Positions 1,818 through 63,664 of a stretch of DNA of 64,000 nucleotides are shown one piece after another. The position numbers were made by a program, and so were the translations under genes. The notes below the pieces were generated by a model. The model had not been told where the DNA came from, did not search any database, and worked only from the letters and a program-made list of their open reading frames with translations. Source of the DNA: Trebouxia sp. TZW2008 (lineage: Eukaryota; Chlorophyta; Trebouxiophyceae; Trebouxiales; Trebouxiaceae); NCBI GenBank assembly GCA_002118135.1, contig BDIU01000058.1:124001-188000 (forward strand). Direction: 5' to 3'. Numbering within the stretch: position 1 is the first letter of the stretch; each line of letters begins with the position of its first letter.

Positions 1818-4800
1818 GTGCATGATCAAGCGCACATAGTTTGCCGAGAGCGTGGGCAGAAGGTTCGCGCGCCATCTGCTGGTCGCATCCAGCGTTTGGC
1901 GCAAGACCTTGCGGCGCCCTGCCTGTCTGGTCGGTTTGTGCTCCTGCGTGGGTGTGCCGCCTACACAATACGCAGATTGCGTATTGTCTGCGTGCTGCTG
2001 ACTGAAGCTCGTGACGGACGATTATGGCCGCTGCCTGGTCTTGCGGTACAGTTTCGCCGTTTCCTTTCAGCAGGTCACGCGGCAGCGAGCTCTGCACCGT
2101 CGGTGCATGCATAGCTAGACCTCGGACACGGCTATTTCCTCAGGTCAGCGGCAGCAACACGCAGAGGGCAATTCCAATACCATGATGATGTGCAGCGAGA
2201 CACTTTGCGTGACACCTTGCAGGCACAGGCGCACAATTCTGCACATGCTGTGCAAGTTTTGGACCCGCCCCTTGTGTCAGTCCCACTGCAAACAGGTCAG
2301 CATTTCCGCTCACTACATGGTGCATGACAATTTCACAGAACTGCTGAAAGAACAAGACCTCAGTTTTGTTGCATGTCATGTTTATGACATGCAACAGGCC
2401 ACAGGTCTTTCTGAACAGAACACCACTATTGCATCACCCCAAGCCGCTCTTGCACAAGAGCCCATTAAAACAGAATTGCTGAAACGGCTTTTTGCTGCCG
2501 ATCGCATGCCATGACTTGCCACAGACCCTTTTTGACCAAAGCATCAGAATTACATGGCCCAACCAGCTTTTGCATGAAAGCACACTGTTCAAGGCGGAAC
2601 TGATGCTGATATTGCATGCCGTGATGTGCCCCAGGTCCTGAACAGAGTGTCACTGTTACCTCACCCAAGCCACAGCTAGCGAGCCTGCTCATACAGTGTC
2701 CAGACCAGAAGGGTGTTGTTGCTGCCTTGGCGCAACTGCTGTATGGCTTTGGCTGTAACATACTGGAGTCTGACCAGTACACAGACCAAACAACCGGCAC
2801 ATATTTCCAGAGGTGAGATTGCTCTTGCTTGCACTTCCTTCAATGGATAGCCTTGTGGGAAAGCAAGATGTCTTGACACCCTGACAGCCATGTTTGGCGC
2901 CTGGATTGCCAAGTGCATCAAGCATCTCTCGCAGGGGCCCTAGAGACAGTCAACCTGTCATCAGCATCTCAGCAATGCCCTTCAGCATGCTTTCCATTTG
3001 CACCTCAAAATGCAGTCTCGGCTGGAATTGCAAGCTGAATTGCTTATGATCATACTATCATTATCTGAGCCATACATGCCTGCAAGCTTGTAGCTTTTTG
3101 AGCATGCTACTGCAGCACCAGCAGCAGCCGCAGATTCAATTTGTTGTCATCATTCCAGATACTACAAGTGTTTTCTTCATGTGTTGCATTTCACCTTGTG
3201 TTTCCTGTGCAGAATACGCTTTGATTACAGTGAATGCCTGGTAGGCCCCAGCAACACACAAGTCCTAGAACACGGCATTGCTGAGCTAGCAAAGCGGTAT
3301 GAGATGGAATGGCGAATCTTCTATGACAGAAAAGTGAAACGCGTGGCCATCTTAGTCAGCAAGCTGGATCACTGCCTGTATGATCTGCTGATCCGCTTCA
3401 AGTCAGGCGAGCTGAGCTGTCAGATCCCTGTCATCATTAGTAATCACCCCAATGTGGCGGGAATTGCTGCACAATTTGGAGTCGATTTCAGGTGTGCACA
3501 TTTTATGCATCACACCTTGCCGCCTGATTCCTCAGTCATCAGCGCATAACAGTGCATTGCAGTCCTGCAAATGGTGCAAACAAATGATGGGCTGCATTAC
3601 TTAGTTCCTGCTCTGCACCAGATCTGACCTAATTGTGCTGAACCACATGCTTCTAGTATGCAAGGCGCAGCAGGAGTCTGGTATTGCATTGTCCACTCAC
3701 TCCAAATGCACTATCTTGCACTCTCACTGCTCTATCACTTAAGTCATTGCATGGTGCAGGCATCCACCGCTGCCAAAGTCAGAAACACAGAGCAAGACCA
3801 GTTATGAGAGCGTCGTTGCATTATTCACCACGCTCGTCATATCAGTGATCCCTTACCCACCCATACCTTATTGTACGATGCAGGCATCTGCCACTGCCAA
3901 GTCCAGAGGGCAACAAATGCTAGCAGGCCGTCATTGCCTTGATACCCACCATCACAGTACGACTGATCTACTTGATTTGTACCATGCAGGCATCTTCCGC
4001 TGCCTCATACAGACACAGAGAGCAAAGCAAGACAGGAGCCCGTCATTGCTTTACTACCCCCCCTGATTGCAGTCAACTCACATTCAACGCGTGTCACAGG
4101 CATCTGCCACTGCCAAGTACAGGTACAGAGAGTAAGGCAAGCAGGAGGCCGCCATTGCACCTTTCCCCACCCTTAGTGATCCATCATCCACCCTGATTGC
4201 AGTGTCATCCACCCTCGCTGCATGCTGCAGGCATCCACTGCTGCCAAATACGGATGCACAGTACAACACACAATAGGAGGCCGCCATTGCGCTGTTTGCC
4301 ATGCTCGACGCACTGTTGATCATCTTCTTTCTGCAATGCAGGCATCTACCGCTGCCGAGTACAGATACAGAGAGCAAAGCAAAACAGGAGGCCGCCATTG
4401 AGCAGCTCATGCAGGAGATGAAAATTGACATGCTTGTCCTGGCCAGGTAAGCTATCAGATTTTGTCTGTGTAGCACCTGCTGCTGTACTAAGAAAACCGC
4501 CCTTGCATCAAGCTGTCATTACTTACAGGTAACACTGCAGTCAGAACGCAATGCTTGTTTCTCACTTCTCTGGCCCTCTCACCGAGAATGTGCTTTTAGT
4601 GGCTGTCCTTATACAGATGAATTACTGTACCAGTCAACAGCTTTCTGTATGTGCTGCATCTGCTTATCGCTGCCTATGCTTGCATACACATGATGGCCTA
4701 CTTTTGCTTCATTTGCTCTGAGCGGTATTGATTTCGCGTTTTGACCTTTGACCTCTTCATGTAGTGATGTAGTATGGCTAGTGTCAACACATCATGCATA

Positions 4801-6094
4801 GCCGTGCACATGCACTTGCATGCCCTTGCACAGTAATACTTTATATACTGTAATACTATAAAATACTGTAATACTATGTATGTGAGCCTTGCTGCTGAAC
4901 TCATCACGTCCCATACGGCTTCTTCTTTTCCTGTTTCCTTCTTCTGCTTAGGACTTACTTGCCATGCCCTGACTGATCAGCTTGTAAATTTCCTGTTGAC
5001 TGTGCAACTGTCAAGGGTATATTGATGGCCCAAAGGCCTCTGGTTCATGGCAGACTAGACTACGGATGAACAAAGCCTACTCGCTTGTGCTAGGCAACAA
5101 ACCACGACTGCAAGTTTGGCCCAAGATCTGTGTAGACCAATGCATGCAAATGTCAAGTTGCTGCCTGTAATGCGCAGGTACATGCAAATCTTCAGCCAGA
5201 GTTTTTGTGTAAGGCATGCAGAGCACACCATCAACATCCACCACAGCTTCCTGCCCGCCTTTGAGGGCGCTAAGCCATACCACAAGGCGCACAAAAGAGG
5301 CGTCAAGATCATTGGGGTAAGTGTTGAGCATGCAGTCATGACTCACAACAGCTGTATCAGGTTTTGCTTACATGACCAAACATCAAAAGTTGTGACTGGT
5401 CGTTGCAGATGTAATGGCTGACCCTATTGACCTGATTTTGGTCAGGAGGGTCAGCCATTACGTCTGCAACATCAGACATGAGACATTTGGTGTGCAGCTG
5501 TTGGCATGGCCACTTTTCTCCCATGCATCATCTATGGCTTGCCAGCATGCTTAGCTAGAGGCACTCCAAGTTTGTTCCCTCATGCTGATTTTCACATTAC
5601 TGCTTGCAATTCCCTTATGCTGACTTGCACATTACTGCTTGCAATTCCCTCATGTTGACTTTCACATCAACACTTGCAATTCCCTCATGCTGGTTTTTGC
5701 ATTACTGCTTGCAATTCCCTCATGCTATGTTCCACATTACTGCTTGGGATTCCCCATGCTGACCTTCAAATGACTGCTTGCAATGCCCTCATGCTGACCT
5801 TCAAATGACTGCTTGCAATTCCTCATGCTGATATTTACGTTACTGCTTGGAGTTCCTTTATGCTGACTTTCACATGACTGCTTGCAGGCAACTGCTCACT
5901 TTGCTACAGCAGAGCTAGATGCAGGACCCATCATTGAGCAGGATGTGTCACGCATTACTCATAGGGACTCAGTGAAGGACATGCTGAGAAAAGGGCGTGA
6001 TCTAGAGAGACTTGTCTTGGCGCGAGCTGTGAGATGGGTTCTTGAAGACAGAGTGCTTGTGCATGGCAACAAGACAGTAGTCTTCAATGACTAG
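1818..6094 (+). CDS. PURU: Formyltetrahydrofolate deformylase
   Basis: Hydrolyses 10-formyl-THF to formate and THF; plant homologues act in mitochondria, balancing one-carbon pools. Exons: 1818-2073 (tentative), 2635-2812, 3213-3491, 4342-4446, 5178-5316, 5888-6094; total 1164 nt, 387 aa. Exon 1 is chosen because it ends in a CAG/GT donor with the right phase and gives an Arg-rich, acid-poor tail ending near QFRRFLSA, like a mitochondrial presequence; the start codon could differ. The ACT domain ([17 protein letters not shown]) is followed by the formyltransferase-type catalytic domain: VIISNHPN (catalytic Asn), [11 protein letters not shown] (His) and [10 protein letters not shown] (Asp) are all present, as is the YMQIF segment. 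No key residue is missing. Introns 1, 3 and 5 are filled with repeats derived from splice junctions. The stop is TAG. Confidence 0.93.
2395..2634 (+). repeat. Decayed copies of PURU exon 2 acceptor side
   Basis: Two diverged blocks, about 2395-2475 and 2515-2590, resemble the acceptor and first 60 bases of exon 2 (2630-2695). Each begins with a gccacag-type acceptor followed by a gtcctgaacagagtgtcac-like stretch. Both are broken as coding sequence. They lie directly upstream of the intact exon. Confidence 0.65.
3757..4300 (+). repeat. Five decayed copies of PURU exon 4 5' half
   Basis: Blocks at about 3757-3830, 3880-3950, 3984-4050, 4095-4170 and 4225-4300 each start with an acceptor-like gcag, then gcatctNccgctgcc, and end near the gaggccgccattg position of exon 4 (4342-4446). 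None carries the second half of the exon or its donor. Frame breaks differ between copies. The intact exon is the last and only complete unit. Confidence 0.85.
5402..5470. repeat. Foldback inverted repeat in PURU intron 5
   Basis: Arms of 24 bases at 5402-5425 and 5447-5470 pair with one mismatch (gttgcagatgtaatggctg against its complement). The short spacer can pair further (tgacc with ggtca). The whole forms an almost continuous hairpin. Confidence 0.85.
5575..5887 (+). repeat. 35-bp minisatellite ending in the exon 6 acceptor
   Basis: About nine head-to-tail units of roughly 35 bases follow the pattern ttccctcatgctgactttc, acattactg, cttgcaa. The last unit ends cttgcag and is the real 3' splice site of intron 5. 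Earlier units carry cttgcaa or cttggga, so the acceptor AG is absent from them. Confidence 0.85.
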
Positions 6095-7002: not shown

Positions 7003-7081
7003 TTAGTGGCTGCTAGCGCTGCGTGCTGACACCACACTGCGACCAGACTCTGAGCCAGCTCTATTGGGAGTAGATACAGCA
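7003..7081 (-). repeat. Duplicated 3' end of the HMMR-like terminal exon
   Basis: On the minus strand this repeats the last 17 or so codons of the terminal exon (AGSESGRSVVSARSASSH) almost exactly and ends in TAA instead of TGA. It lies just past the true stop at 7091-7093, so it is probably in the 3' UTR. Confidence 0.85.
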
Positions 7082-7090
7082 ACAAAGGGA

Positions 7091-10000: not shown

Positions 10001-13000
10001 AGAGTGAGACTCTGCTACCAGCAACATCAATTATTGTCACATGGTCAGAAGTTCTCGTAAATGGAGCCCATGTCACCTTGGACTGCCAAGCTTGACCCTC
10101 GTGAAGAGCCTGCTTGCCTCTACCCGCCAGCATCAGGTTGCGTTCACTAATGGGCGTCGCACACAGGAAGTGCTTCCTGACATACAGTGACTCCCTGTCT
10201 CAGCTTTGACTACCAAGCTTGGCCACTTACATACACAACAGTGATGCAGCTGAGATCCCGACATTGTCCCTAAGTGGAGTCACATGCAGCTGACATTGCC
10301 ATTTTGACCTTGAATTGCCAGGTTTGACCTTCTTGCAGTGCTTACTTTCCTCTGCCTGCCAGCATCAGGCTACGTCTACTAACAGGGGTGACACACAGGA
10401 GATGCTTCCTGACACTGGTCATTGCTTAGCTGCCATTCTCCCAGGTCCAAACTATGACCCATCCGCTGATAAGTGTCGACTTGCTTCCTTGGTTGTCTCA
10501 CCTTGGATTGCCAGGCTTGACCTTCTTGCATTGCTTGCTTGCCTCTGCCTGCCAGCATCAAGCTCTGTCTACTAAGGGGGTCGACATACAGTCAGCTCTG
10601 CCATACTCGGGAGACTACAAACACAGCAGACACAACCAATAGCAATGAGAGAGGGTACCTTGGATTGCCAGGCTTGGCCTTCTTGCAAAGCTTGCTTTCC
10701 TCTGCCTGCCAGCATCAGGCTGCGTCTACTGATAGGGGTGACATACAGGTGGTGCTTCCTGAGGCTAGCAGGCTGCAGGGGATTCTTCTCCAAGGGGCTG
10801 CGCTGGGAACTGCTCTGGGCGGTTGCTGGCAGCCCTTTGCCAGGCACAGGGAACTGGCTACGCACTGCAAGGTACCTGTATAAATTACTTCACCCTCAGC
10901 ACATAAGTGTTCCCATTGTCTCAAATGCTGACACAAGCAAAAATGTTCACACAGCAGCAGCATGCACTGGTATGGCACTGTTGTGCTGCTGAACGCATGA
11001 TAGGCTATGCAGTGCATCTGGCACACTACTTGAGGTTATAGCGCATGAGTAGGAGCAGCATGCGCAAAAGCATGACAATGTTGTGATGCTGCAAGCACAA
11101 CAGGCTGTGGTGTTGTATACACACCTGACGCATTGCTCAAGGTGAAAGCGCTCACGCAGGAGCAACATGCACTCGTGCCGCATCTCCTCCAGCTCCTGCT
11201 TCAATCTCAAATGGTACTGGATCTTCTGCCTGGGATTGTTGTGACCCATGCCTGCTGTGCCAAACACCTCCTGCAGTCGTCACACCAATTCACAACAGTG
11301 CTCATGAGACCTCGCAAGCGACAGAGCACCATGGTACCTGGAGGTCACCTGCCAATCTCAACCAGTCTTACAGCCAGCCGTGCGTCTGAGGCACTCCACC
11401 TCAGTCACAGCTGCTAAAACAGCACACGTGCAGGGACAAATTGAGCCTTTACAAAGGCTCTGGAGTGAGAATTAGGATGTCATCATCAACAGGTGGTTCA
11501 CCTCAAGATCAATATCCATCTAGGCAAGTCTAGCTGCCAGCAGCGCGCCGTCCTGTCCGAGGCAGTCCACCTCAGTCGCCTCAACCGCGGCTGCTGAGAC
11601 ATTCATGCACGGGGTGTCAGTTTGCCTGGGCAAAGAGACACTGCTGGGACGGGCAATGGGCATCACCTGGAGGTCAATGTCCATGTGGGCCAGTCTCGCA
11701 GCCAGCAGAGCGTGTTCCTGTCCTAGGCAATGCCACTCAGTCCTTTCTTGCTTCCGACCGAGCAAATGGCACACAGATTAGGGTGACCAAATCCCATGAA
11801 TTGAGAAAGAGATCCTACTTGGAGGTTGATATCCATCTGGGCCAGACTTGCAGCCAACAAGGCGTTATCCTGTCCGAGGCACTCCACCTCAGTCACCTCA
11901 ACCAGTGCTGCTGAGACAATCATGCATAGACAGGCAATTTGCCGAGATATGAAAACACTGCTGGGACTGGCAAAGTGACTGGCAAAGTGCATTACCCGGA
12001 GGTCAATGCCCATTTGCGCCAGTCTGGCAGCCAGCAGAGCATATTCCTGTCCTAGGCAATGCCACTCAGTCCTTTCTTGCTTTTGACTCAGCAAACGGCA
12101 CACAGATTAGGGTGACCAAAATCCATGCATTGAGAAAGGGATCCTGCCTGGAGGTCGATATCCATCTGGGCCAGTCTTGCAGCCAGTAGTGCATTTTCCT
12201 GTCCCAGGCGCTCCACCTCTTTCTTTACTGCTTGCAGGCTGACCAGACAGCACACAAACAACAGATCTGCAGAGGGTCCGTTATGACACCTAACGGCGAA
12301 GACTTTGCTCTCTTCTTTTTTCATTTTTTCTTGGTTTTCCCTGTTTCCCAATATGCAAAATCAATACCGCTGAGAGCAAATGAAGCAAAAGTAGGCCATC
12401 ATGTGTATGCAAGCATAGTCAGCGATAAGCAGATGCAGCACATACTAAACTCTAACTAAACTAAATCGTCAAGGCAACGGCGCTTACCTGAAGATCAATG
12501 TCCATTTGAGCCAGTCTGGCGGCCAACAAGGCATTGTCCTGTCCTAGGCGCTCCACCTCAGTCACAGCAGCTTGACTGGCTTCTGCTGCTGCGCGGGCAC
12601 TGGCAGCTTCAGCTTGCATTGCATCTACCTCCAACTGCATTGTCTCAACCTGCAAGGCAATTCAGTTCTACTGCCAGTGTCTTTGTTATGGTTGTCACCA
12701 TTACGCGGATGGCTTGACTGGCTTGAGCTGCTGCTCAAGCACTGGTGGCTTCCGCTTGCAGTGCATCCACCTCCAACTGCATTGTCTCAACCTGCCAGCA
12801 ATTGGTAGGTCTGGTCAATATGACATCATGAGCGTCATCCCTACTAGTACTCTGGCAATCATTGCTATAGTCACTGTCATCTTAATCATTATGACTGGTC
12901 ACAGCTTGACTGGCCCCGGCTGCTGCGCATCCGCTGGCGGCTTCAGCTTGCATTGCATCTACCTCCAACGGCATTGTCTCAACCTGCAAGGTAAAACAGT

Positions 13001-16000
13001 TCTACTGTCAGTGTCTTTGTTATGGTTGTCACCATTACGCGGATGGCTTGACTGGCTTGAGCTGCTGCTCAAGCACTGGTGGCTTCCGCTTGCAGTGCAT
13101 CCACCTCCAACTGCATTGTCTCGACCTGCAATTCAGTTCATCATGCTTGTCAGTAGCGATGTGACCATTGTTGAGCTCGTGGTCTTGACTTGCAATGCGT
13201 TCACCTCCAAGCGCACTGTCTCCACCTGCAAGATAATCATAAGTCTGGTCAATATGACTGCCATTGTGAGCGACATCACTACTAGTACTCATTGTTATAA
13301 GTTACTGTCATCTCTATTGTATGACTGGTCGCAGCAGCTCAAGTGGCCCCGGCTGCTGCGCGTGCATTGGCGACCTCTGCTTGCATTGCATCCACCTTCA
13401 ACTGCATTGTCTCCACCTGCCATCAGCATTCATATCGTCAATTTGAGTATGACTCTCAATGTCACTATGACCACCACTGCCATTGGTCAGGATGTTTCGA
13501 CTCGCCACAAGCGTCAACTCCGTCACTCTGAGCCATCTTCAAGTGGGTGCTGTTGCCGTTACTATCATCATCAAAAGCATTGTCACAACTGTCATCAATG
13601 CCATCCGCATCGTCAGAATGCTCACCCTCATGGACATGCTTGCTGTGCAAAGTCCAGGACCCTGCTGAATGCAGACAGGTGCATGCATCTTAAGCAACAC
13701 GGCAGAAGCTACCGACTTCACTCTGGCAGCTGCCTGTGGGTCTCAGGCGGGTCTTGGACTGCATCTTTGCCACAAGCAAGCCTGAAATGCATAAGGCTGT
13801 TCAAGCTTGATCAAGTGCACGTTACGCCATACCCTTTGATTTGCAGCAGCAGCAGCCTCCAGTGGGGCATTCTCCAAGTGCCCTTCCAGGCTTTTGGCCC
13901 TGCCCTCAGCATGCTGCAGTGCTGAGTATGCAGCTTGAAGCTCAGCCTGCACAAAAAGATTGTGAACCGCAGCAAAACTAACAAGTTTAGCAATGCAAAT
14001 AACATCAGAGGGTACATGCTTGCAGGACTTTCAATTTGACCCATACTATCAGCCGTGTGCTCCACACACGCTGTGCTGGTCATAGTGACAAGTGCACATG
14101 AACAACTGCATGACTACTCATCAGAGATCCGCTGAAACTTCTATGCTGACAGGGCTCACAGGTTGAATCACTTTACAGGCCTTTGAACTGCTCATACACT
14201 CGTCGCAACGCAAAGTTGCTTCAGCACCCCAAAACTGCTCCATGAGTCTGCAGGGTGGCATGTTGCAATGCCCTAGCACAGATCTGTGTGGCAATTGCCT
14301 GTGTGACGTGGCATGGAATGGGCTGTAACTGCATTGGCGTGCTCTGCTGACTATTCTAGCTGCTATCAAACTTGATCTGACAGTCACGCTCTTAGTTACA
14401 GACAATGTTTTTCTTATACATGGATAGATACCCGCTGCATGCCAAAGGCGACACAATATACTCATGATCAGAAAGCCACAAAAGTCTGTTTTCTGCCAGG
14501 GCACAAAGCTATTAAGAGTTCAGAAATTACCGTTGTTTCTTGCTTTTGCGCTTCCAGTGAGGCCTTGTCAACACGTATCTGATCCAGCTCATCAAGAAAA
14601 TCAGCAGCAGCATCTCCATGGGCAGCTGCATCGCCCCTTGCCTCTTCTGCTTCCTGATGACTAATCTGCAACGCCTCATGCAGCTCCTTCACTTTCTCTT
14701 CTGATGCTTGGAATGCTTCATTTGCTGCCTTCAGCTCTTCTTGGCTTGCATTCAATGTCTGAGCCAGGCTCCATACCTCTTCTTGCCTCGCTGTTGCTGA
14801 GTCACTGAGCTGTGAGAGCTGTGCTCTAAGGTCGTCAGCTTTGCCTGTCTGACTCAGGATCTGACTCTGAGCATCATGAGCTGAGGCTTGAGCCATCTGC
14901 AAAGCTTGAGCTACCTCACTGAGTTGTACTTGCAGCTCAGAGACTCTTTCCGTGTGTGCATCTGAAGCTGCTTGAGCTGTTTGGGTACTGGCTTGTAATT
15001 CAGCCTTGACTTGGCAAATATGCAAGTCATGTTCAGCTTTAGCTTTGTCACTTGCTTGCTCAGCTGCTGCTAGAGCTTGCCTCAGCTCTGAAACCAGGTC
15101 TTCAGAGTCAGCAAGCTCAGCTCGGCGGCTGCCGAGTTCGCTCTGCGACTGAGTCAGCACATCCTGCAGCTCAGCAGAAGCTCTGGCTAAATCATCCATT
15201 GCATTCTGAGCCTCTTCATGCTCCTCTGTGAGGTTAGCATTGAGCTCAGTTGCTTGATCCAGCTGAGCCTGGACCACACTGACATGATCTTGCGTTGTGC
15301 TGAGCTGATCCTGTATCTCAGCATGCGCCTGCTGCTCAGAGTTCAACTCAGCCTGACTTTGACTCAGCTGCTGTTTTGTCTCCTCAAGTTGGCCCTGAGT
15401 GTCTGTAAGAGCAGCTGCTGATGTTTGTAAACGCCTCTCGACATCAATGTACGCTTTCTGGAAGTCTGAGGCTGTCTCATTGGCATCATCTACAGCAGCT
15501 TCCAGCCTGCTTCTGGTCTCAGACTCAGCGTTCAGCTCCTGCTGAGTAACGAGCTGGCTCGCCTGAGCTGCTTCCAGCGCACGCTCAACTGCCTTGCTGG
15601 CTTCTGCTGCAGCTGTTGAGGCAGCTTCAGCGGTTACTAAAGCAGCCTGTGACTGTGTAAGCTGACTCTGAAGCTGACTGACCTCCTTTGACAGCTCAGC
15701 ACCAGACTGCTGACTCACGTTCAGCTCCAGACTCAGCTGTTGCGTCACAGAATCCAGCTCACTACGCTGTTGGTAAGCCTCATTCAGTGAGGTCTGTGCT
15801 TCTGCCAGAGATGCTTGCAGCTCTGTCTGAGATTGTGACAGGTGCTCAATCTGTTGCTGTGACTGCGCAGCGCTCTGTTGATCCTGAGCAGCGAGTTGCG
15901 TCAGCTGTGACATGCCTTGAGAGGCGTCTGAGAGCTGCTGTTGCATGGCATCAAGAGCCTTGGCCTTTGCAGCTGCAGAACACTCTATAGCTGACACACT

Positions 16001-19000: not shown

Positions 19001-22000
19001 GTGCGGAGTGAGAACCCTGCAAATGACATGAAAACTTGCCCCCTTGTTACAATGGCGCTATCGTGTCTGCTCAGCTGATTTGCTGTTCATTCCATCATGC
19101 TGGTTGGTCAGGTCTCGGGGAAATGTGCAGGGTTATCAGTGCATATCAGACCCCTGCACGCCCCACTTTCTGCATGAGCAGTGACAGCTATGTGCTACAG
19201 GTGCAATCAGTGGCGGTCTTTGCATCTTTTCAAACGCGGGTGCTGGTTGGTCAACTCTCTGTACTCAGTGTTTAGGACAAAATGTTGGGCCAACAGTGCA
19301 GAATGACACCCTTGCACACAACAGCATGACCCCAAGTCTCTGCTTGGGCACTTGTAACACTTCCGTGCTCGCTTGCATGCTCTTCTGAGGTGGCACTCAG
19401 CACAGCATGCTGATTGATGACGTCTCTGTGCGTTGAGAGCAGGACATGTCTTGGGTCATCGGTGCAGAGCGGATCTCACACTCAAACAGCAAGGCTATCA
19501 GCACTAATGACACATCATTGAAGTAGTTGATGGTGATATCCATGACCCTGCTACAAACCTACAGAAGCACTGGATGAGTTTTGCACATACCTGCAGCTTG
19601 TCCAGCTTCTGAACACGCTCTGACAGCTGTCTGCCCAAGCTGGCTGCTTGTCCCCTTGCACTCTCCAGCTCAGATGCTGAGTCAGCTTCCCGAGCTGCAG
19701 ATTTGGCCCTCTCAGCTTGCAAGTCGGCCTGTTGCTGTTGAGTCTGCTCAACAGCTGAGTCTAGCTCGACTTGAGTGTTGCCTAGGCTCTGGGTCAGCTG
19801 CTGAGTCTGCTCAACAGCTGAGGCCAGCTCGGCTTGAGTGTCGCTCAGGCTCTGAGTCAGCTGCTGACACTCAGCGACTGACTGGATGAGGTCTGAGCTG
19901 TTTGTGTCGGCTTCAGCTGTCTTACAGTCAAGCTGTTGCTGCAGAGTGGCCTTCTCTGCCTGCAGAAACATTGGAGTGGGCTCAAAAAGCTGTACAGTAA
20001 TTCGAAGCCAGAGAAGCAGGCAGGCAGACAGACAGACAGGCGGACGGATAGACAGACATACAGACAGACACAGAAAGACAGACAAACAGACAGCTGATGG
20101 TGATGCATGACTTTGGCCTGGGGTCAAATACACCAGTCAACAGTTGTGAAAGCAAAGAAGCGCGGCTGTATTTGTTTGCCTCATGGCTGTTTGGCCGTGC
20201 GTATGATTCCACAGTTCAGATGCGTGCAGACAAGCAAAGGTATCCATTGCAACAGTGTATATGAACTGCAGACAGCGGCAGGGAATGCACCTTTAACATG
20301 TAAATGGATGCCGCAAGCTCCTGCTGACTGTGGCTTGCTTCCTCAGCAGTCTTCTGCATGCTGCTGCTCTGCTGGCCATCATGTACTTCATGAGGCGAAG
20401 CATTGCATCTCTTACTTTGTGATGCAGACGTGCACAGTGCACAATGACTAAACTCAAAGGAACAAGGGAGCACCTTCAATGTGTCAATGATTGCCGCAAG
20501 TTCCTGCTGACTGTACCTTATTTCCTCAGCAGTCTTCTTCATGCTGCTGCTCTGCTCATCATCATTTACTTCATGAGGCTAAGCGTCATGTCTGTGACTT
20601 TGCGATGCAAGTGTGCACAGTGCACCAGATTTACACTTGAGGGAGGGGAGCATAAGATGCCCTGAGCATATCATAGGTTGCTGCTCCTGCTGACTCTGAC
20701 TTACTTTCTCAGCAGTCTTTTTCGTGCTGCTGCTCTGCTGGTCATCATATACTTCATGAGGGTAAGCAATACATCTGTGACTTTGCGAGGCAGAAGTTCA
20801 CCTGGCACAAGATGTGCACTCAAGGGAGGGAAGGGTGACGCACCCTGAGCATATCAATGGTTGCTGTCAGCTCCTGCTGACTGTGGCTTGCTTCCTCAGC
20901 AGCCCTCTTCATGCTGCTGCTTTGCTGGTTGGTAAGCTCTTGCAAAGAAGCAATCTCTGCAGCTTGTGTGTCCAACTTGGCCTGTTGCGCTATGGACTGC
21001 TGCTGCCGTTCAGCGAGCTGCTGTTGGGCATCTGCAAAAGAAGCCTGCACAGGTACCACTACATTTGGTGCAGTCTTCACAGAATACACAGTTCTCGCAA
21101 GGCAGAGATCTCAGCAGTTGTGCACTCAATTCAGCCTGTTGCACTGCTGCCTGCTGCTGTTGTGAATCTAATTGCCTCTTGGCATCTGCCAACGAGGCCT
21201 GCAGACGTCACACTACATTGAGTATACTTGTTGCAGAACTTGTTCAGGGCTCAGAAGCTGCTGGCAATGCTGACTGGGAAAGCTCAGCAGCTTGTGTGTC
21301 TGCTGCATCTTGTTGCAGTGTTGACTGCTGCTGTTGCCCAGTCAATTGCTGCACTATATCTGTCAATGATGCCCAGAGCATTGTCAAATTCGACTCAGTG
21401 AAAATTTTGCAGAAAGCCTCAAAATATGGGGCAATAGATCAGCATTGCAACTGAAAATCAAATCTCATGGCGCATCAAACCACTTTCCCATAGCAGACTG
21501 CTGAAGGGCAGAGTAAGACCATTTGTGCAGCCTCAATAGTTTGGCACATGATCAGCAAGATCAAGATGTTCAGGTTTTGCTGTAAGACAAGGTCGGAGGG
21601 ACACCTACTTGAAAAGTAGCAACTTGAGCATTTGCTGCTAGCAAGGCCTGCTCCAGCTCAGCAACTCTTGCTTGCAAGGTAGCAACCTGTGCTTCAAGCT
21701 CAGCAATACGCTGCTGTGCGGCAGTCAGAGCTGCTTGCAGTTGCCCTGCAGTCATCGGCTGTGACTCTTGATACGACGTGCTGGTGCAGATACATGATGT
21801 AGGTGCGAAAACAAACATCTCAAGCAGATGCAGCACATGTACACAACCTGATTGAAAGTCAAAAAGATCAAAGCCAGGTGTGCAGGCACATACATATGTC
21901 ACGCAATGTTTGTGTCATTGCATATTACGGTATTTGTACTGCATTACACTGCATAGTATTTGGCACAACACACATATGCAAGGTGTGATCCATTGTTGTC

Positions 22001-49100: not shown

Positions 49101-52100
49101 ATGTAGTCAGCAGGTGTCGTGATGGCGAAGGCGGCGCTGGCAGCAGCCGTATTTGTCTTGCAAAAGCAGAAATTGCAGTTGCAACCTGCAGTGCTACGTC
49201 AATCTTTGTTTGCAGGACTTTCATGATGACGGCGAGGGTGGTGCTGGAATCAAGATCATGCACTTGCTGCAAGACAGCAACATGCGCAATGTGGTGGTCA
49301 TTATATCACGCTGATTTGGCGGAATGCTACTGGGTCTAGCCAGGTTCATGTACATCACAGATGCTGCCAGAAGCATGCGCAAGCTTAAGTGCTGAAACCA
49401 TGACTGCAGGACTTTCATGATGATGGCGAGGGTGGTGCTGGCATCAAGATCATGCACTTACTGCAAGACAGCAATGTGCGCGGCGTGGTGGTTGTGGAGT
49501 CACACTGGTTTGGTGGGATGCTACTAGGCCCAGCCAGGTTCATGGACATCACAGACACTGCGTGACACACGGTGAAATGGAAAATGCTGACGCAATGGTC
49601 TTTTGCAGGACTTTCATGATGACGGTGAGGGTGGTGCTGGAATCAAGATCATGCACCTACTGCAAGACAGCAACGTGCGTAATGTGGTTGTCATTGTATC
49701 ACGCTGGTTTGGCGGGATGCTACTGGGCCCAGCCAGGTTCATGTACATCACAGACGCTGCCAGAGCGGTACTCAATCAGGGTGGCTACCTACAACAAGCT
49801 CAGCCCTTGGCTCTGGTCAGCGCTGCTCCAGGGTCTGAACCCATGGAAGAGGACTCCTCATCAAGTGAAGAAGACGCTGAGGTGCTTAGTCCTGTTTCAT
49901 GCTCACCTTGTGTATGATGCTCTGTAATCTGCCTGGTTATGTACATCACGGACGCTGCCAGAGGCATGCTGAATCGCGGCAACCACCAGCAACAAACTCA
50001 GCCTGTGGCTGTGGTCATAGCCGCTACAGGATCTGAACCCAAGAAACTATGCTCATCATCTCAATACAGAGAGGTGCTTGATTTGCAGTTGGACATATCT
50101 TCTGTATGATGCTGTATGCACAGGTTGACAATAAATCAGGCTGACTGTGATCATTCTGGCTCCGCCTCGTCTGACAACGTTGCATATGTGTTGAAATCCA
50201 ATAATCAGTTTTGAGTACAACTTGATGTATTGCAGGCTCTACTGCCAGAAGGATTGGATGAGCTAGACACGGCCTTGCTGTCTACCCTGCCACCTTCACT
50301 GCGGCTACAATTTGCCTTGACACCCTGATGTTGGAGTCTGAACTCAAGATCGAAGTTGAATTTGAACTTGGATTGTTCCTTGTATGCAGGCTGTACTGCC
50401 AGAGGGACTTGACGAGCTCGACCCCGCAGTGTTGTCCACACTGCCACCCTCACTTCAGCTGGATTTTGCTTTGAAGCTGCGGGAGCGTAAGCAGGCTGAG
50501 AACAGGGAGCACTTTCAGAAGCACACCGGCCAGCCGCAAGCCTTCTCCAGCTTTCAGCTGCAGCAGTACCTCAAGGGGACTCAGCTCAAGTAAGTCATAG
50601 ACTGTTGCAGATGCACGACCGTTTTGCATTGCACTGCACTCAACAGCACGCTGGGCAGCCGCAAGCCGGCTCCAGCTTTCAGCTGCAGCAGAACCTCATG
50701 GGCACCCAGCTCAAGTAAGCCCCTTTCGGCAGCTTGAAGTCTTTAGTTGTTGAGCCGATTCTGTGCTTGCCCGATCAAAGATTTGGCAAACTGAGCATGC
50801 TTGATTCGTGTTGTCATTCGATCAATTTTGCACGCGGCGAGAAAGCTTGAAGCAGACAAAGGATCCTTGATTCACATGGTCCCTGCAAAGCTGGTCTGCT
50901 TTGCAGGCAAGAGATGGAGAAGATGAAGGACGCAGTGAATGCAGCAGCAGGGGGTGAGGGGGTACCCACCCGCCGCATTGCTGGGGATGCTGGCAGGGAA
51001 TACATCCTGCAGACAGAAGAAGACACAAAAGCCAAGGCAGCCCTTGAGGCAGGTCTGTCCTGACCATTCGTCAGAGTTTGCACTGATTGCATGCTTGCAT
51101 GATTCGGCTGACGTATGATCCAATGCTGCCATCAGATGCAAATTTGAGAACGCAAAGCAATGTCTTGAACAGTGTCTCGAGTCTTTGGTTTCTGTGTGCC
51201 TTATCAATGTTCAACCGACACGTCTGGCTGAAATTCGTCATATGCTTGCTTGATGTTGCAGCCGACCTCACCCCAAAGCATGCCTCAAGCAACAAGTTCA
51301 CAGCATTGCTTCCTGTGGCTTTTCCGTCTCTGTGACCACATGCGCAAAACTCAAAATTCATTTGCTTGTGTTGTGATGCAGAACCAAGCTCAAGAACATT
51401 GTCCAGCGGGCACCTAGAGATTGAATTTGAAATGCCAGCAGAGGATGCTGACACTCAAAAACAGCTCTCAATTGGTGACAGCTCAGACGAATGGGAAGAT
51501 GTGGATGGGGAGGGCAGTTTGGAACAGCCCTCGCCCTCGGGTGAGGGCAGCGCCAAAGGCAAGGGCTGGCGGGAAAGAGCTGCGCACAGGCAGAAGTACT
51601 GGAGCAGAATGACAGGGTTTCAATTTGGCAGAAAACTTGGGGACTGGGGTAAAGATGAAGATCCTGAAGCAAAAGCTAGCAAAGTAAGATGCAACCAGAT
51701 CCTGCTATCTAGTGCCATAGCCTCTCTTTCCTCACCTGTGTATCATGGTCCTATGCTGCTGTTTGATAGCATATACTGGTTTGTGGTTTCTGAGTTGCTT
51801 GTCAGGGTGTTCGCAGTGCTTTGAACAGAATACACGCTCCTGTTGTGCTGCCTAAAGAGCTTCACTTCCGTTCACTGTGCTTTTGCTATCAGGATGCTCA
51901 CACTGTCTTGAATATAAATCAAATTCTGGCGCTTGATGGCCTAGGCTTTTCTGCCTCTATGTCTTTATACAAAGCGCCTGGTGGTCTAGGCTTTTCTGCC
52001 TCTATGTGTTGCGACAAGGTCCTCAAAAGTGCTTTGGATGCCTGCAGGAGCTGCGTGCCTCTGAGGTTGAAGACGCAGAGCTTCAGGAAGCAATCGCCAG

Positions 52101-53769: not shown

Positions 53770-53805
<36 letters not shown>

Positions 53806-56800
53806 GCCCGACAGCAGCAGCAGCAGCAGGCACAGCGGCAAAGCAGCAATTTTTTTGGGGCTGTTGACAGCGTGGGGCCAAGTGGCAGCTTGCCAGCGCC
53901 TTCAGAGGTGGGGCTAGGAGAGTATGGGTCAGCTGGGCTGGACCCCGGCATGAGTGGGGGGGTCAGCGGGGGGCTACCCTCCTTTGATTTGGATGCTGAG
54001 ATTGCCACCCTTGACAAACAGAACAAGGTTTGTATTGCCAGGAATTGTGCGCGCATTTTGAGTTTCTGCCTCTCCTTTTTCAATGTTACATGTCCATCGC
54101 TCTGTCTCCAGCTGTGTCAAGTTTGTCAGCAGAAATTGCTGTCACAGCATAGTGCAGCTCACAAGATGTTTGAGACAGTGTCAAGAGCTGCTGCAAGCCT
54201 TCAGCATGCCTTACAAAGTTGCCATCCGCATTCGAGTGTTTTGTGCCTGTGCAGAGGCTACAGTAACATCACAGAGCTCAAGTCAGGAATACGTTGACCC
54301 ATCCTATGACTTGTGTGAGGAACGTCAAGAGCTGCTGCAGAATTTTGACTTGCCTTACATATTTGCCCTGTCTTACAGAATATCTTCTCTTCATGCAGAG
54401 GCTGCAGTCACAGCATAGAGCTCAAGTCAGCAATGCTGCTGACACCCCAGAAAATGAGATGTGCAGGAAACGCCAGGAGCTGCTGCCACTGTTTGGCCTG
54501 ACCTCACAAGTTGCTTTGCTTTACTCTTCTCGTTGTGCAGAGGTTGCAGTCTCAGCATAGAGCTCAAATCAGAAATGTTGACAGCCCAACCAATGGAATG
54601 ATAAGGAATGCCAAGAGTTGCTGCAGATGCTTGGCGTACCTTACATATCTGCCCTGTCTTACAGCAAGTCTGCTTTCTATGCAGAGGCTGCAGTCACAGC
54701 ACAGAGCTCAAGTCAGGAACGCCGATTCCCCAACCAATGAGATGTATGGGGAATGTCAAGAGCTGCTGCAGATGTTTGGGTTGCCTTACATCATTGCTCC
54801 AATGGAAGCTGAAGCCCAATGTGCCTGGTTGGATGAAGCAAAGCTAGTAGACGGAGTTGTCACTGATGACAATGATGTCTTCCTGTTTGGTGGACAGCAT
54901 GTCTACAGGTGAGTAGCGTGTTTGCTGTCAATGGCCTGACTTACACTAGAGCACCAATGGAGGCTGAAGCCCAATGTGCTTTGCTGGATGAAGCAAAAGT
55001 AGTGGACAGTGTTGTCGCTGGTGACAACAATGTATTCCTGTTTGGTGGCCAGCATGTCTACAGGTAAGGCGGATAGTGTAGCCTTTGATACTGTTGGTGT
55101 CAGTGGCTTGCCTAACATTGTAGCACCAATGGAAATTGAAGCCCAATGTGCCTGGTTGATTGAAGCAAAGCTAGTGGACGGTGTTGTCACTGACGACAAT
55201 GATGTCTTCCTGTTTGGTGAACAACATGTCTACAGATGAGCTTGAATTGCGCATCACACCTCACAACTGCATACAAGAACTCCCTTGCCACAGGTCAGGC
55301 TGTAGAGCAGACAGTCTTGCTGATCCCGCCGCTGATGGCAACAATGGCTGCTTTCTGGTTGACAGCATATTTACATCTTGGGTGGATGGTTTTGAACGAG
55401 TTCACTGCTTACAACTGTGAATTGTGTTGTTGCTTCATGTCACATTCTGTACATTGCAACTCCAAGAGCAATGACCATGTTGACGAACAGCTATGGTGCA
55501 CTTTTAGGAACAACTTTGAGGGGAAGTAATATGTGGAAAATTATGGGGTCAAAGATATCAAGCTTGAGTTGAGCTGCTGCTGCATGCAGCATTGAGCACA
55601 CACTGCCATGTCTATGCCGGAATCTTGTGACCAGAAAAGATGTGAGCAGGATCATAAGAGCAAACAATGTCATGCACACGCAAACATATCTTCCAGGGCA
55701 TGAAGTGGGCGGTCTAGCACAGGGTACAAAATGTGCATGCTGACTTGCCTGGCTGCTGTGTGTAGCATTAAGCAAATACTGCCTTGTCCATGCAAGAACT
55801 ATGTAAACTATATAAACTATGTAAACTACGTAAACTATGTAAACATTCAGGAACATGTAAAATCTTGCACATGCAGGAACATTTTTGAGGGCAAGAAGTA
55901 TGTAGAAGAATACAGGGTACAAGATGTGGAGTCTGAATTGGGCATGTCGCGGGACAAGCTCATTCAGCTGGCTCTACTGCTCGGCTCTGACTACACTGAG
56001 GGCGTTGCTGGCATTGGCATTGTCAACGCTGTTGAGATTGTGAACGCGTTTCCCACTGAAGAGCTGCTGGTCAACTTCAGGTAATGCTCAAGGAGTCATC
56101 CATGCTGTTCATTGTGTTGATGTATGTCTCCCTGTCAAGCTCATTCAGCTGGCTCTTCTGTTGGGCTCTGACTACACTGAGGGTGTTGCTGGCATTGTGA
56201 TCGTCAACGCTGTTGGGATTGTGAGCGCCTTTCCCACTGAAGAGCTGCTGATCAACATCAGGTAATTTGCAAAGGGACTGCAAATGACTTTCCAACTGAA
56301 GAGCTCCCAATTAAGCTTTGCTAACATTGTCCTCCAGACAGGCATTGGCATTGCCAACGCTGTGTAGATTGTGAATGCCGTCCCCACTGAAGAGGTACTG
56401 GTCAAGACAATGCTGAAGGAGTCATTAAATTTGTTGCATTTATGGATGCGTGTTCAGTTCAGCTGGCTCAGTTGCTAGCCTCTGACTACACAGAGGGAAT
56501 CACAGGCATTATTGTCGTCAATGCTGTCTGCTACTGTATATGTAGGGTGAAGGCGTATTGTTGCTGTCTGGTTTAACACTCTCAATGCTGCTCAAGTTGC
56601 CAATGACATGCTAACAAAACAGTTTCTCATTAGTGTGGAACAAGTCAGGGTTGAGCACAGCAACCATGATTTGCTTCACGCTGATGAGCAGCTGTTCAGA
56701 CAGCATGAGTGCTGTCAACTTGCAGACAGGCATGACAGGCACTGCGTGTCAGCAATGAGCAAGCATCGCTGCATGACCCAACAAGTCTCTTCTTAGCAAT

Positions 56801-59800
56801 GTCAATGCTGCTAAGAATGCCAATGCCGTGCTGACTGAACAGCTTCTCTTCAACTGACAGCAGATCATGGTTGCTGTGTTCAATTGGGATCATCATGCGT
56901 GAATACAGCGAACTGATCTACCTGAAGCTGATGAGCAGCTGCTGAGATGGCATGAGTGCTGTCAACTTGCGGACAGGCCTGGCAGGCACTGCATGCCAGC
57001 AATGACCAAGCATTACTGCATGACCCAAAAATTTTCTTCTTGGCACTGTCAATGCTGCTCAGGTTGCCAATGCCTTGCTGACTGAACACCTTCTCTTCAA
57101 CTGACAGTAGATCATGGTTGCTGTGTTCAACTGACAGTAGATCATGGTTGCTGTGTTCAATTGGGAGCATCATGGGTGAATACAGCGAGCTGATCTACCT
57201 GAAGCCAGTGAGCAGCTGCTGAGATGGCGTGAGTGCTGTCAACTTGCAGACAGGCTTGGCAGGCACTGCATGTCAGCAATGATCAAGCATTGCTGCGTGT
57301 ACGATAGATCATGGTTGCTTTTTTCAACCATGGCTCCTCACGGTTGAGGGCAACGTATTGATTGAATAAAAGAAGCATCACCACACCTTTCAGCACATGT
57401 GCTAGGTGTGTGTCGCACATGTCCTGTCTCGCCAGATATGTTTGTACTGATGCATCTGAAGCTAGTGGACAGCTGAGATGTCATGGATCAGATGGCAGGT
57501 AGGCCTTTCTCACTGCAGTTCAGCAATGAACAGGCATTGCTGACTTGCCCATCATGACGGGATGATTTATTGGTCAAGCATGTGATAATCTTCTGACATC
57601 ACCAAGTTGAAATGCAAGCTCATGTCCAAACTGCAGAAAGTTGGTGTTGAAAGTTGGATTCGGTGAAAGTTGCTGATGCTTAGCTGATTACCTCCCTGGA
57701 AGGCACTGCTGACATTGACCCCTTAGCCTTGCCACATTGTTCTGGCAATGACTCAAAATCGTTGACTCGTTGTTGACTGATGCTGCTCAATGTACCACTT
57801 GCAGGAAGTGGGTTTTGACACCTGATGCTCAGCTGATCACTGCTCTGGGGGGCGCTGCTGACATTGACGCCTCACACAAAGCTTGTTAGTCTTTGTCAAC
57901 AACTGAACGCTTCTGACTCACATTTGACTGATGCTGGCCAATGTCCGACTTTCAGGAGATGGGTGCTGACTCCTGATGCCCAGCTCGTCACAGCTTTGGA
58001 TGGCACTGCTGATATGTTCCGTCATGCATCACATGTTTTTGTGACTACAAGCTGATGACTCCCAATGACTGATGCTGACAAATGCAGGAAGTGGGTGTTG
58101 ACACCCGATGCTCAGCTGATCACAGCTTTGGGTGGCACTGCTGATGTGGACCCTGAATTGCATACATGAATAACAGACTTGTCACCGGCGATATATAGGG
58201 CTGATGAGCAATAATCGACTGATCATTACCAGTGGGCGATCTGCAGGAAATGGGTGTTGACCCCTGATGCCCAATTGATCACAGCTTTGGGTGGCACTGC
58301 TGATGTGGACCCTGATGAGCACATCCGGGCCTTCAAGCACACCCACACTGGTCAGTCTTGTCACAATCTTCTTCAGTCTTGTCACAATCTTCTTCAGTCT
58401 TGTCACAATCTTCTTCAGTCTTGATCTTGTTCCGCACACACTCACAAGGCTGCTTGACCCTGGATGCACACAATCAAAAGGCTGCTTGACCCTTGTCTGA
58501 ACATACTCACAAGGCTGCTTGACCCTGGATGCACACAATCAAAAGGCTGCTTGACCCTTGTCTGAACATACTCACAACGGTGCGTGAGGTGATTGTTTTG
58601 CAAGAGTGAGCAGTAGTCATCACCTTCATGCAGTGCTGTGTTGCTTGTTTGCCGAGTTCAATCAATCAATCAATCAATCCATTTTACTGTCCTTGGGACC
58701 CAACAGGGGAGTCAACAGACAATAGTTGTCATTTATCACCTGTGTCAAGCACAAGAAGGAGTTTCACACATGGGCATCAATCTCTATCCTAAAAGCACCG
58801 CCGTACTTGGGATTTGGTTCGCAAGCACTCACATGATAGTATAAGGCATCATGTCCAAATGCCTACAGACATGGTGAGCATTGGCACCTATGCATGCATC
58901 CATACACTGCAGGCCTGCGCAAGAATTGGGACGTGCCTGAGACGTTTCCTAACTCAGCAGTGATTAGAGCCTATAAGGAAGCCAAGGTAGACCAGAACAG
59001 GGACAAGTTCACGTACGGCCGGCCAGACCTGCAGCTGCTGCGTCGATTTTGCCTGGACCGATTTGGATGGCAGCAGGACAAAGCTGATGAGCTACTTGTA
59101 CCAGTGCTTAAGGTATGAGTCTGACATTTGTCTTGTTCAGAAGCTCTGTGAGCTGAGACACTGCTGCTCATCTGGCTTGTTCCAAGAAGAAAGGTTCTGG
59201 CAGCAGGATAGAGCTGATGAGCTGTTCTTGCCTATGCCAGTCCTCAAGGGATGGCATTGCTATCCCAGCTTTCTCCCAAACAGTTACTGATTGCCTTTGC
59301 CTAGAGAGATTTGGGTGGCAGCAAGACAGAGCACTTGTGCCAGTGTCAAAGGTATTTGTCTGTGTCTCAGTGATTCCTGAGACATCTGGTTCATGCTATC
59401 TACCTTGGCTCAAAATCCCCGCGCCTCTGGTCATTCAGGCATACTGTGGCAGCAGAATATAGCCCAGATGTGCTGCTTGTTCAACGCAAAGTGGTGCAGA
59501 GCCTTTTGCATCATTCATCACTATCTCACTGTTGATTCAAGGCAGCTCGCGGTCTCTGCATCAGATGAACAGAATCCCTGAACATTATTGAATGAACAAA
59601 CAAGGATGGCAATACCTTGTTGCCGCTGCCGTGACAGTCAAGTCATGTTATTTAATTACCTGTTGATGCATTCATGTATTGCACTGACATTGCATTTGCA
59701 TGGTGCTGTAGGCGTACGATGACAATCAGACGCAGATGACCCTGGACAGCTTCCTCAGTTTCAGTCAGCGATTCGCCAAGATCAAGTCTCGCCGCCTACA

Positions 59801-62386: not shown

Positions 62387-63664
62387 CTATGCTGGCAAAT
62401 CCGCCAGATCTGTGTTGTTTTCCCAGTGCGCGTAATTAGCAAGCACACCATCCAGCATTGGTTTTGCATCCTCAAACAGGTCAACCATGCTTCTGAAAAG
62501 TGGGATGCCGACAATGCTGAAAAAACCCAACTGAGAGCGGGTCATGCCGCCTTGTTGACTCCGGTCCATAAGGGGACTCACAGGTAGGCTACCTGCTTTC
62601 TCCTTGTCTCCCTACAGTCAAAAATGCAGTCATAAGCATGCACCATGCAGAAGATTGCTGGAAATGCTACAGATGCTCTACATGTACGCTGATACTGCTT
62701 TCACTTGCATGATACTGCTGTGTAACAAAATGAGCTCCCAACCAAACAGCGGCAGCGTAACAAAAGGCAGTGAGGACCTGTCTGAAGAACTCCTCCTCCA
62801 GCTGAAACGCCCATCGGCGATGCGTCCTTGGAGGCGCGGCTAAGTGACCGATGTCAGCACATTTCAGCACCATCTGCAGTCAAAATTCGACTCTCAGCAT
62901 TTTGCCATGCGCACCAACTGCTGAAAAGGCTTTGTGATGTTTGGCTTGGTATAAGCAGCTAGCTGATGCATGCACTTGGCGTGGTCCATGTCTGCACATG
63001 ACTATATTTGAGGGTTTAGGGTTTATAGGGCCCATAGTCTGCACATGACAATCATGCCAAATGACATGCTATCTCCTTGCTTTGGAGTCTGTGTGCAGAC
63101 AATACGCAACTGCATGTTGAGCCACATGGTCACTAAGGAAGAGGATGATTGCTGCAACTGTCAACTGCAGATGTGCACACATGCAACACGCTTCAAAGCG
63201 CTGTCATGGATGCACTTCAACTCAAGCCAAGACCATTCGTTAGCAGCTGCTGCCTCCACATCAAAAGCTTCCTGCATCAGCCTTACATCGACAACAGCTA
63301 CAGTTATAGATGCATTGTTTGATGCTCTTTATGCCCTTTACAAACGAAAATTGAAACATGGCTGCATGGTTTGTAATGTACAAGACTGTTGAGCTTTGCG
63401 TAGTGTACTATGGTCTTGTCTTCAGCTTTGATGGTATCCCAGTCAATAGGTGAGTGGTCTGTTGACAGTGTTGACGTCAGATCACTTGACTGATGTCGTG
63501 TACATCATGCATGTTGACGTGAATCACTTGAGCTATCGATGATCAAAGCTTACTTGATGTACAAGTGTTTTGTCTTCAGCTTTGATGGTGTCCCAGTCGA
63601 TGGGTGAGTGGTCTGTTGGCAGTGTTGACGTCACATCACTGCCTCCAGGCCTCTTGAAAGCAGC
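62387..63664 (-). CDS. 3',5'-cyclic-nucleotide phosphodiesterase, C-terminal part
   Basis: Hydrolyses cAMP and/or cGMP. Exons on the minus strand: 63664-63554, 62873-62778, 62611-62387 (TAG); 111+96+225 nt, all phase 0. The 5' part lies right of the window. The joined protein reads LVHQMVLKCADIGHLAAPPR (helix with the metal-binding Asp), RWAFQLEEEFFRQGDKEKAG, PVSPLMDRSQQGGMTRSQLG, then the last helices FFSIVGIPLFRSMVDLFEDA, as in PDEase class I. The Gln of SQLGF is in the nucleotide-clamp position. The HD-type His residues upstream are not in the window, so activity cannot be judged. Cyclic-nucleotide signalling is common in flagellate algae. Confidence 0.93.
63011..63025 (+). repeat. Two telomere-type TTTAGGG units
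   Basis: agggtttagggttta lies inside a phosphodiesterase intron. TTTAGGG is the usual plant and many green-algal telomere unit. Two units may be chance or a telo-box. Confidence 0.4.
63420..63500 (-). repeat. 3'-half copy of a phosphodiesterase exon
   Basis: Plus-strand tcagctttgatggtatccca and the next 60 bases repeat the end of exon 63664-63554 (63576-63640), on its donor side. Confidence 0.88.

Follow-up and report, generated by a model that had tools for sequence, protein, structure and literature searches.

Where intron sequence comes from is an old question, and the genome of Trebouxia sp. TZW2008, a lichen green alga, raises it in a specific form: why do its introns carry repeated, partial copies of the exons beside them, many with a splice site attached? 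We followed this up from one window, the whole 64,000-nucleotide stretch between positions 124,001 and 188,000 of contig BDIU01000058.1 (G000:C57:124001-188000 of a 68.5 Mb assembly made up of 527 contigs), where such copies form arrays on either side of individual exons. Our reading, to which we give a probability of about 0.65, is that these arrays are of the type described in lancelets as mirage minisatellites, founded by a tandem duplication spanning a splice junction, with the exon block of each copy refreshed by gene conversion from the exon.

Partial exon copies beside splice junctions

Three genes of the window, PURU, PRP17 and XPG, were modelled by hand via homology and comprise 34 exons together, with copies kept out of the protein queries by eye. 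PURU aligned with 3w7b (286 bits) and PRP17 with Prp17 8xi2_W (733 bits), the spliced PRP17 protein also matching a Trebouxia sp. A1-2 protein over 542 residues without gaps at 93% identity (next best Apatococcus, 65%), which marks the alga as a Trebouxia and probably not the species of A1-2. XPG aligned with ERCC-5 (226 bits) from the end of exon 12 to exon 18 and has XPG_N and UPF0029 in its first exons; exons 8-11 and 19, with no homology of their own, were placed by splice sites and an open frame.

Each exon was compared with all introns of its gene on both strands. This recovered 28 exon-like intron stretches, all on the same strand as the exon and in an adjacent intron, none of them on the wrong side and none spanning a whole exon. 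Copies in the preceding intron start at exon base 1 (n = 13) or are internal (n = 1), and those in the following intron reach the last 15 exon bases (n = 10) or are internal (n = 4). Homologous proteins have nothing at the copied places, and in-frame stops occur in seven of the 28 copies. With gene-finder exons included, the window holds 60 matches at 68–92% identity to their exons, in line with the original prediction of more than 60 copies, and further decayed copies were recognised by eye (PURU 3760 and 3884, some in PRP17). In window coordinates, the source exons and copies of the three genes are:

4342..4446, plus strand: PURU exon 3, source exon; the 3w7b protein alignment crosses it, splice sites ATGCAG before and GTAAGC after
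3760..4292, plus strand: five 5′-half copies of PURU exon 3, each with AG (starts 3760, 3884, 3990, 4100, 4231); three pass E 1e-3, two by alignment
42014..42222, minus strand: PRP17 exon 8, source exon; Prp17 alignments are gapless across its donor
41122..41757, minus strand: five 3′-half copies of PRP17 exon 8, GT in most (41122, 41260, 41460, 41585, 41710); more decayed ones by eye
42890..42927, minus strand: partial copy of PRP17 exon 7 (42525-42724), in the preceding intron
49609..49881, plus strand: XPG exon 7 (UPF0029/IMPACT part), source exon, from homology and exon-intron comparison
49216..49561, plus strand: two 5′-half copies of XPG exon 7, 92% and 87%, from exon-intron comparison
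49931..50041, plus strand: partial copy of XPG exon 7 positions 124-235 in the following intron, 78%, from exon-intron comparison
50236..50320, plus strand: 5′-half copy of XPG exon 8 (50390-50589), 76%, from exon-intron comparison
50645..50714, plus strand: 3′-half copy of XPG exon 8 with GTAAG, 87%; the flank past GTAAG has no recognisable relation
54685..54908, plus strand: XPG exon 13, source of arrays on both sides, from the ERCC-5 protein alignment
54255..54646, plus strand: three 5′-half copies of XPG exon 13 (starts 54255, 54399, 54541)
54937..55235, plus strand: two 3′-half copies of XPG exon 13 (54937-55063, 55104-55235)
55877..56080, plus strand: XPG exon 14, source exon, from the ERCC-5 protein alignment
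55508..55574, plus strand: 5′-half copy of XPG exon 14, 72%
56136..56527, plus strand: three 3′-half or partial copies of XPG exon 14 (starts 56136, 56341, 56458)
57805..58156, plus strand: 5′-half copies of XPG exon 15 (58247-58350), starts 57805, 57956 and 58088, with a decayed fourth at about 57637

The original prediction held that copies of the 5′ half of an exon lie before it and copies of the 3′ half after it, and this is borne out by all 28 copies. As evidence for any particular cause the rule is weak, since geometry imposes it on every tandem duplication that crosses a single junction, whatever brought that duplication about. Sidedness hence separates tandem duplication from scattered insertion, not a special process of intron growth from random duplication.

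The introns of PURU hold other repeats as well. A 97-bp sequence at 4647-4743 recurs inverted and 95% alike at 12349-12445 in a predicted intron 7.6 kb away, with two genome-search matches; 5402-5470 is an almost perfect inverted repeat that could form a long hairpin and is possibly a small inverted-repeat element; and an intron-only array of nine 35-bp repeats at 5575-5886 runs right up to the splice site, ending at the true acceptor of exon 5. In the XPG-like gene (45744-61259), a UPF0029 (IMPACT) domain seems to lie between XPG_N and XPG_I in one continuous frame (window 47207-49881), and the Pfam matches to XPG_N and UPF0029 on one spliced product would reflect either a fusion or two genes joined by the model.

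Junction copies across the genome sample

The wider sample of 15 sequences (230 kb) comprised the window, a 50-kb stretch of C13 and 13 pieces, none longer than 10 kb, drawn from contigs C1-C20. One piece, L013 (G000:C17:50001-60000), was excluded from gene and copy counts; its guanine-cytosine content of 0.405, with zero tandem pairs, zero tRNA genes and two open reading frames of at least 130 amino acids, is unlike the other pieces, and it is perhaps organellar or foreign. Genes were predicted with a two-strand hidden Markov model gene finder that started from clearly coding parts of the window and then trained itself, a one-strand version having been dropped because it over-predicted tiny exons or joined genes on the wrong strand. 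The splice consensus it learned was CAG/GTAAG for donors and TGCAG/G for acceptors. Six predicted proteins from other pieces were scanned against Pfam and all six matched at E ≤ 0.001 (RCC1, staphylococcal nuclease (two), citrate synthase, SET and amino-acid transporter). Once predicted exons that were themselves copies had been removed, 344 exons were left, eight of them shorter than 25 bp and unsearched.

A search one and two introns away from each exon gave 177 matches, made up of 161 adjacent same-strand copies, 15 two introns off and one adjacent but inverted; 75 of the 344 exons have an adjacent same-strand copy. Among the 161, 5′-half copies stand before the exon in 65 cases and after it in four, 3′-half copies after it in 56 and before it in one, and the rest are internal (n = 27) or whole (n = 8). 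The side rule was originally worded with an "only", which fits the confirmed genes but is too strict for the gene-finder set, given five wrong-sided copies of 161 alongside the inverted one and the 15 two introns away. Whole-exon duplications, said to be missing, are indeed absent from the 28 copies of the confirmed genes, but they account for eight of the 161 and a whole exon is included in 13 of the 116 clusters described below. Copies of exons outside the three confirmed genes that lie in the window, all of gene-finder exons unless stated, are:

12712..13125, minus strand: three 5′-half copies of HMMR-like exon 12488-12649 (13046-13125, 12902-12983, 12712-12791)
20297..21198, minus strand: copies of HMMR-like exon 20844-21044, three 3′-half below and one 5′-half above
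10077..10591, minus strand: three 3′-half copies of exon 10659-10875
34654..34712, plus strand: 3′-half copy of Ser/Pro-rich exon 34144-34476, 75%
63404..63486, minus strand: 3′-half copy of a phosphodiesterase-gene exon (about 63558-63640, placed by eye outside the gene models), 89%; the copied donor is without GT

A chance control of one Markov-1 resample per piece contained no tandem pairs. In the real sequences the share of DNA in such pairs is 20.8% for the window, 14.7% for the C13 stretch and 0–46% for the other pieces; the window is richer in them than many pieces, and not alone. Grouping pairs by shared copies gave 116 clusters, of which 76 join part of an exon to intron copies, 12 are intron-only, 13 whole-exon, 6 within exons, 3 intergenic and 6 other. 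The exon-touching share of exon-touching plus intron-only clusters is 86%, against 48% when units of the observed lengths are dropped randomly on genes with the exon and copy-free intron lengths (70% with introns halved), and clusters with a pair at least 88% alike number 25 exon-touching versus three intron-only. By our own reasoning, slower decay of the constrained exon copy can explain about a factor of two of the exon-touching excess. A cruder classification, which merged arrays flanking one exon and is now superseded, gave 62 junction arrays (expected 25.5) and 11 intron-only arrays (expected 26.4) among 108 over all genes, and seven junction (expected 2.6) and two whole-exon arrays (expected 5.0) in the confirmed genes.

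The repeat period is 110–220 bp in 61 of the 76 exon-touching clusters, with a median unit of 154.5 bp. Unit length in these clusters gathers around 150 bp, which is near the length of lancelet globin mirages and of a nucleosome. Introns with copies (79 of 301) average 665 bp versus 386 bp for the others (Mann-Whitney p = 2e-14), a relation to be read as association only, since longer introns offer more room. Their excess over the mean of the others comes to about 22 kb of 138 kb of intron. This is a sizeable share of intron sequence and no proof of dominance, and the suggestion that junction duplication is a dominant route of intron growth is left unproven, with intron-only arrays of the confirmed genes at expectation.

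Exon blocks, intron flanks and the origin of the arrays

When all copies are aligned at the junction, identity per position is 0.69–0.98 on the exon side and 0.60–0.97 over five splice-site bases, beyond which it drops abruptly to 0.33–0.64; intron-side identity is 0.24–0.71 in copies at least 86% alike. For 22 of the 82 upstream copies and 22 of the 60 downstream ones, similarity stops 2–7 bp past the junction on the intron side, or 3–4 per base versus at most about 2 elsewhere, and this spike is present also in the copies at least 86% alike. It ends within the first 60 exon bases in six upstream and seven downstream copies.

Flanks were tested with six splice-site bases excluded (their inclusion biases the test), against a null of the flanks of copies in other genes and with simulations at the observed 0.1 indels per substitution. 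A flank was recognisable in 26 of 59 upstream and 16 of 41 downstream copies, whereas the simulations give 48.9 and 35.6 for flanks with double the divergence of the block, and 33.7 and 24.9 for threefold divergence; overall this is 42 of 100 testable copies versus about 85. The confirmed genes retain three of 13 and two of nine, where 10.2 and 7.7 are expected at twice the divergence. Between two intronic copies, 27 of 53 pairs share a recognisable flank versus 51.3 expected, hence constraint on the exon cannot explain the loss. Spacer homology at z > 3 was found in 39 of 71 scored junction groups, and regular arrays with homologous spacers occur too (L009 7862-8751). The interior ends of same-exon copies, taken from blast, lie at most 10 bp apart in 11 of 20 groups (157/157, 261/261, 59/59/62, 107/110/114) and at most 25 bp apart in all, which may point to one founding unit.

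One array gives a closer view. Beside HMMR-like exon 12488-12649, two 228-bp stretches (13129-12902 and 12795-12568), each consisting of block, spacer and block, are 94% alike; their limits lie 4 bp outside an AG on one side and at the interior end of the block on the other, the surrounding sequence is unlike, and they look as a homology-limited conversion tract would. The decoupling of blocks from flanks suggests that the exon keeps refreshing the blocks and that the spacers turn over meanwhile, and we infer gene conversion as the simplest process known to us that produces both.

The copies themselves appear to drift. At exon bases covered by two copies (97 copy pairs, 34 groups), codon positions 1/2/3 are almost equally hit by differences found in one copy alone (0.20/0.14/0.22). 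Differences from the exon on which both copies agree (0.03/0.03/0.087) are threefold more frequent at position 3. This is the pattern of drifting copies and a constrained exon, with few changes common to copies. Pairwise exon-copy omega was 0.45 (copies of at least 40 columns, spectrum from non-exonic tandem pairs), close to the 0.5 expected for one neutral and one constrained lineage, and the original claim that such duplications are neutral stands in the form of near-neutrality. Furthermore, 62 of 79 indels are not a multiple of three. A coding function of the copies, considered as the confirmed genes looked constrained, was set aside on the branch partition, omega and frame-shifting indels. 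Overall the copies are mostly neutral, with a shortfall of damage, and a minority may be constrained for part of their time. Splice dinucleotides are often retained (AG in 51 of 58 upstream and GT in 39 of 48 downstream copies), and the T share upstream of copied AGs is 0.32 (59 copies), versus 0.34 at true acceptors and 0.27 at random AGs. A branch-point motif was also looked for upstream of the copied acceptors, where the motif was too weak to decide and T-richness alone was informative.

From these patterns the following course may be proposed. A tandem duplication, mostly of 110–220 bp, would break once within the exon and once within the neighbouring intron and copy one splice junction with mostly 50–150 bp of exon. 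As the old mRNA can still be made by one junction, the remaining copy is absorbed into the intron, a nearly neutral change; duplications confined to exons or covering them whole would mostly be lost. The unit would then multiply in place. Copies would drift, with the exon block (the exon part and a few conserved splice-site bases) refreshed repeatedly by short-tract gene conversion from the constrained exon as lasting template, and with the intron flanks between blocks turning over freely. Old arrays would thus keep exon ends with splice sites amid unrelated spacers, and exon-touching arrays would outlast purely intronic ones. The founding event, which the original prediction had already described as a duplication with one exonic and one intronic breakpoint, is well supported by same strand, adjacency and partial flank homology; multiplication in place is supported in part, and the refreshing of blocks by gene conversion we infer.

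Much of this would also follow from plain random tandem duplication throughout genes, filtered by purifying selection and decaying neutrally, with the constrained exon copy merely recognisable for longer. The side rule, same strand, adjacency, near-neutrality and part of the flank homology would need no further assumptions, non-exonic tandem pairs do occur, and intron-only arrays in the confirmed genes are as frequent as expected. We nevertheless regard this account as unlikely, as flanks are lost past twice the block age and between two unconstrained intronic copies, the splice-site spike is present in young copies, and exon-touching and intron-only clusters stand at 76 to 12 against about 1:1. 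Simple duplication with neutral decay, as originally proposed, thus keeps its founding event and its nearly neutral copies, but does not account for similarity so often ending at the splice site or for flank loss exceeding block loss. A separate template switch for each copy, ending at splice-site-like microhomology so that the flank was never copied, would explain why similarity stops there in many copies and why several at least 90% alike have no recognisable flank. The close interior ends of same-exon copies are unlikely for separate events, however, and the T-rich bases upstream of copied AGs look as if an acceptor region was once copied; we consider this quite improbable.

The retained AG and GT, the deficit of stops and indels and the constrained look of changes in the confirmed genes could instead mean that copies are kept by selection for use as alternative junctions, poison exons or decoy splice sites. 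Against this, the copy-private codon-position pattern is almost flat over all groups, most indels are not multiples of three and a quarter of the confirmed-gene copies carry in-frame stops, which makes such selection very unlikely. Assembly error had been named at the outset as a possible source of the copies. Copies created or made exon-like in assembly or polishing by mis-mapped exon or RNA reads would show similarity confined to the exon block, as after spliced-read correction, but window copies differ from their exon by 8–32%, and most keep an intronic AG or GT that is absent from spliced reads. We give an artefact hardly any credence.

Several observations weigh against array founding followed by conversion. 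The evidence is the DNA of one genome assembly; our own ab initio gene finder, trained on the same data, supplied 310 of the 344 exons, and 43 predicted exons were removed by rule as tandem duplicates of longer exons within their gene. Copies were detected by exon similarity, which favours star-like trees centred on the exon, and the flank null consists of other copies within the same sample. In 10 upstream and 13 downstream copies the match extends beyond the first 100 bp of the intron, and about four in ten testable copies keep their flank, as plain duplication predicts. Interior ends lie 12–25 bp apart in nine of 20 groups, and the cruder classification found three intron-only arrays in the confirmed genes versus 2.9 expected, no shortage. 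The confirmed genes (seven groups) also show less even copy-private differences (0.18/0.16/0.27), least so in the PRP17 array (0.10/0.15/0.32), and 188 synonymous versus 171 replacement changes between exon and copy, a synonymous share of 0.52 versus 0.25 under neutrality. Over the whole set, in-frame stops number 28 in 3594 codons versus 44.6 expected if all replacement changes fell on copies, and indels, too, are fewer than full neutrality would give (79 per 1840 mismatches, against 446 per 4513 between non-exonic pairs). Because interior ends are not exactly shared and neutrality looks weaker in the confirmed genes than overall, our confidence in the mirage-type reading is slightly lowered.

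A bolder extension, tentative and in our view rather doubtful, is that the exon acts as an undying template that rewrites its own decayed junction copies by short gene conversion, so that purifying selection maintains non-functional, intact-looking junctions genome-wide and drives intron length. If junction arrays recur genome-wide, part of intron length becomes readable as a record of duplication with internal age scales, and the many duplicated, apparently unused splice sites make junction choice by the spliceosome testable. Such arrays would also mislead annotation; the gene finder called 43 exons that were dropped as likely copies.

Junction arrays and known repeat systems

Introners are dispersed families that add much intron sequence (PMC9860276), as the Trebouxia arrays do. 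The copies had been predicted to be distinct from introners, and two copy-rich introns agree: a genome search scoring the best candidates only found no dispersed relatives of the 1320 bp XPG intron or of the 1261 bp PRP17 intron with exon, the queries matching themselves and their own exon and, for XPG, also an inverted pair within the intron. Intron gain through tandem genomic duplication with a duplicated AGGT (PMC3443670, PMC4974935) shares with the arrays the tandem duplication and the hiding of the extra copy by splicing. In that model, however, the new intron is the duplicated exon segment, whereas in Trebouxia existing introns are lengthened by units with one real junction and intron flank, and in the displayed arrays copies alternate with non-exonic spacers inside the intron; the two are separate results of one type of mutation. 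In human segmental duplications, internal tandem repeats that are spliced out or kept occur at exon-intron boundaries (PMC2812944), a position they share with the arrays, but they are recent and paralogue-specific and are discussed there as making novel introns and splice variants.

Among the literature matches listed, with subscription journals outside coverage, there were no junction-copy arrays in algae, and a literature search yielded no paper on partial exon duplication taking in intron together with gene conversion; in the available part of the Trebouxia "A48" paper (PMC12712428), "intron" occurs once, in a reference.

Our results are closest to the mirage minisatellites of lancelets, reported in Adh3, the globins BflGb6 and BflGb9, TnC and PGBD5 (PMC3087553, PMC3902484). 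As described in these papers, mirages are boundary-spanning tandem repeats at 5′ and 3′ boundaries, with units of 10–160 bp, undisturbed splicing, length instability between haplotypes and concerted evolution; those of BflGb6 are 81–100% identical and differ in length between haplotypes. Trebouxia repeats likewise span intron-exon boundaries and affect both the 5′ and 3′ sides (65 and 56 correctly sided copies). Units of at most 160 bp make up 44 of 76 clusters, the rest reaching 828 bp, and the block/flank decoupling may hint at concerted evolution. They differ in that mirages are described from single genes, whereas Trebouxia copies accompany 75 of 344 sampled exons, are mostly 70–95% identical and have blocks and flanks of apparently different ages. 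Within the literature searched, what looks new is the lineage, the age range, how frequent the arrays are in an unselected sample and the decoupling of blocks from flanks.

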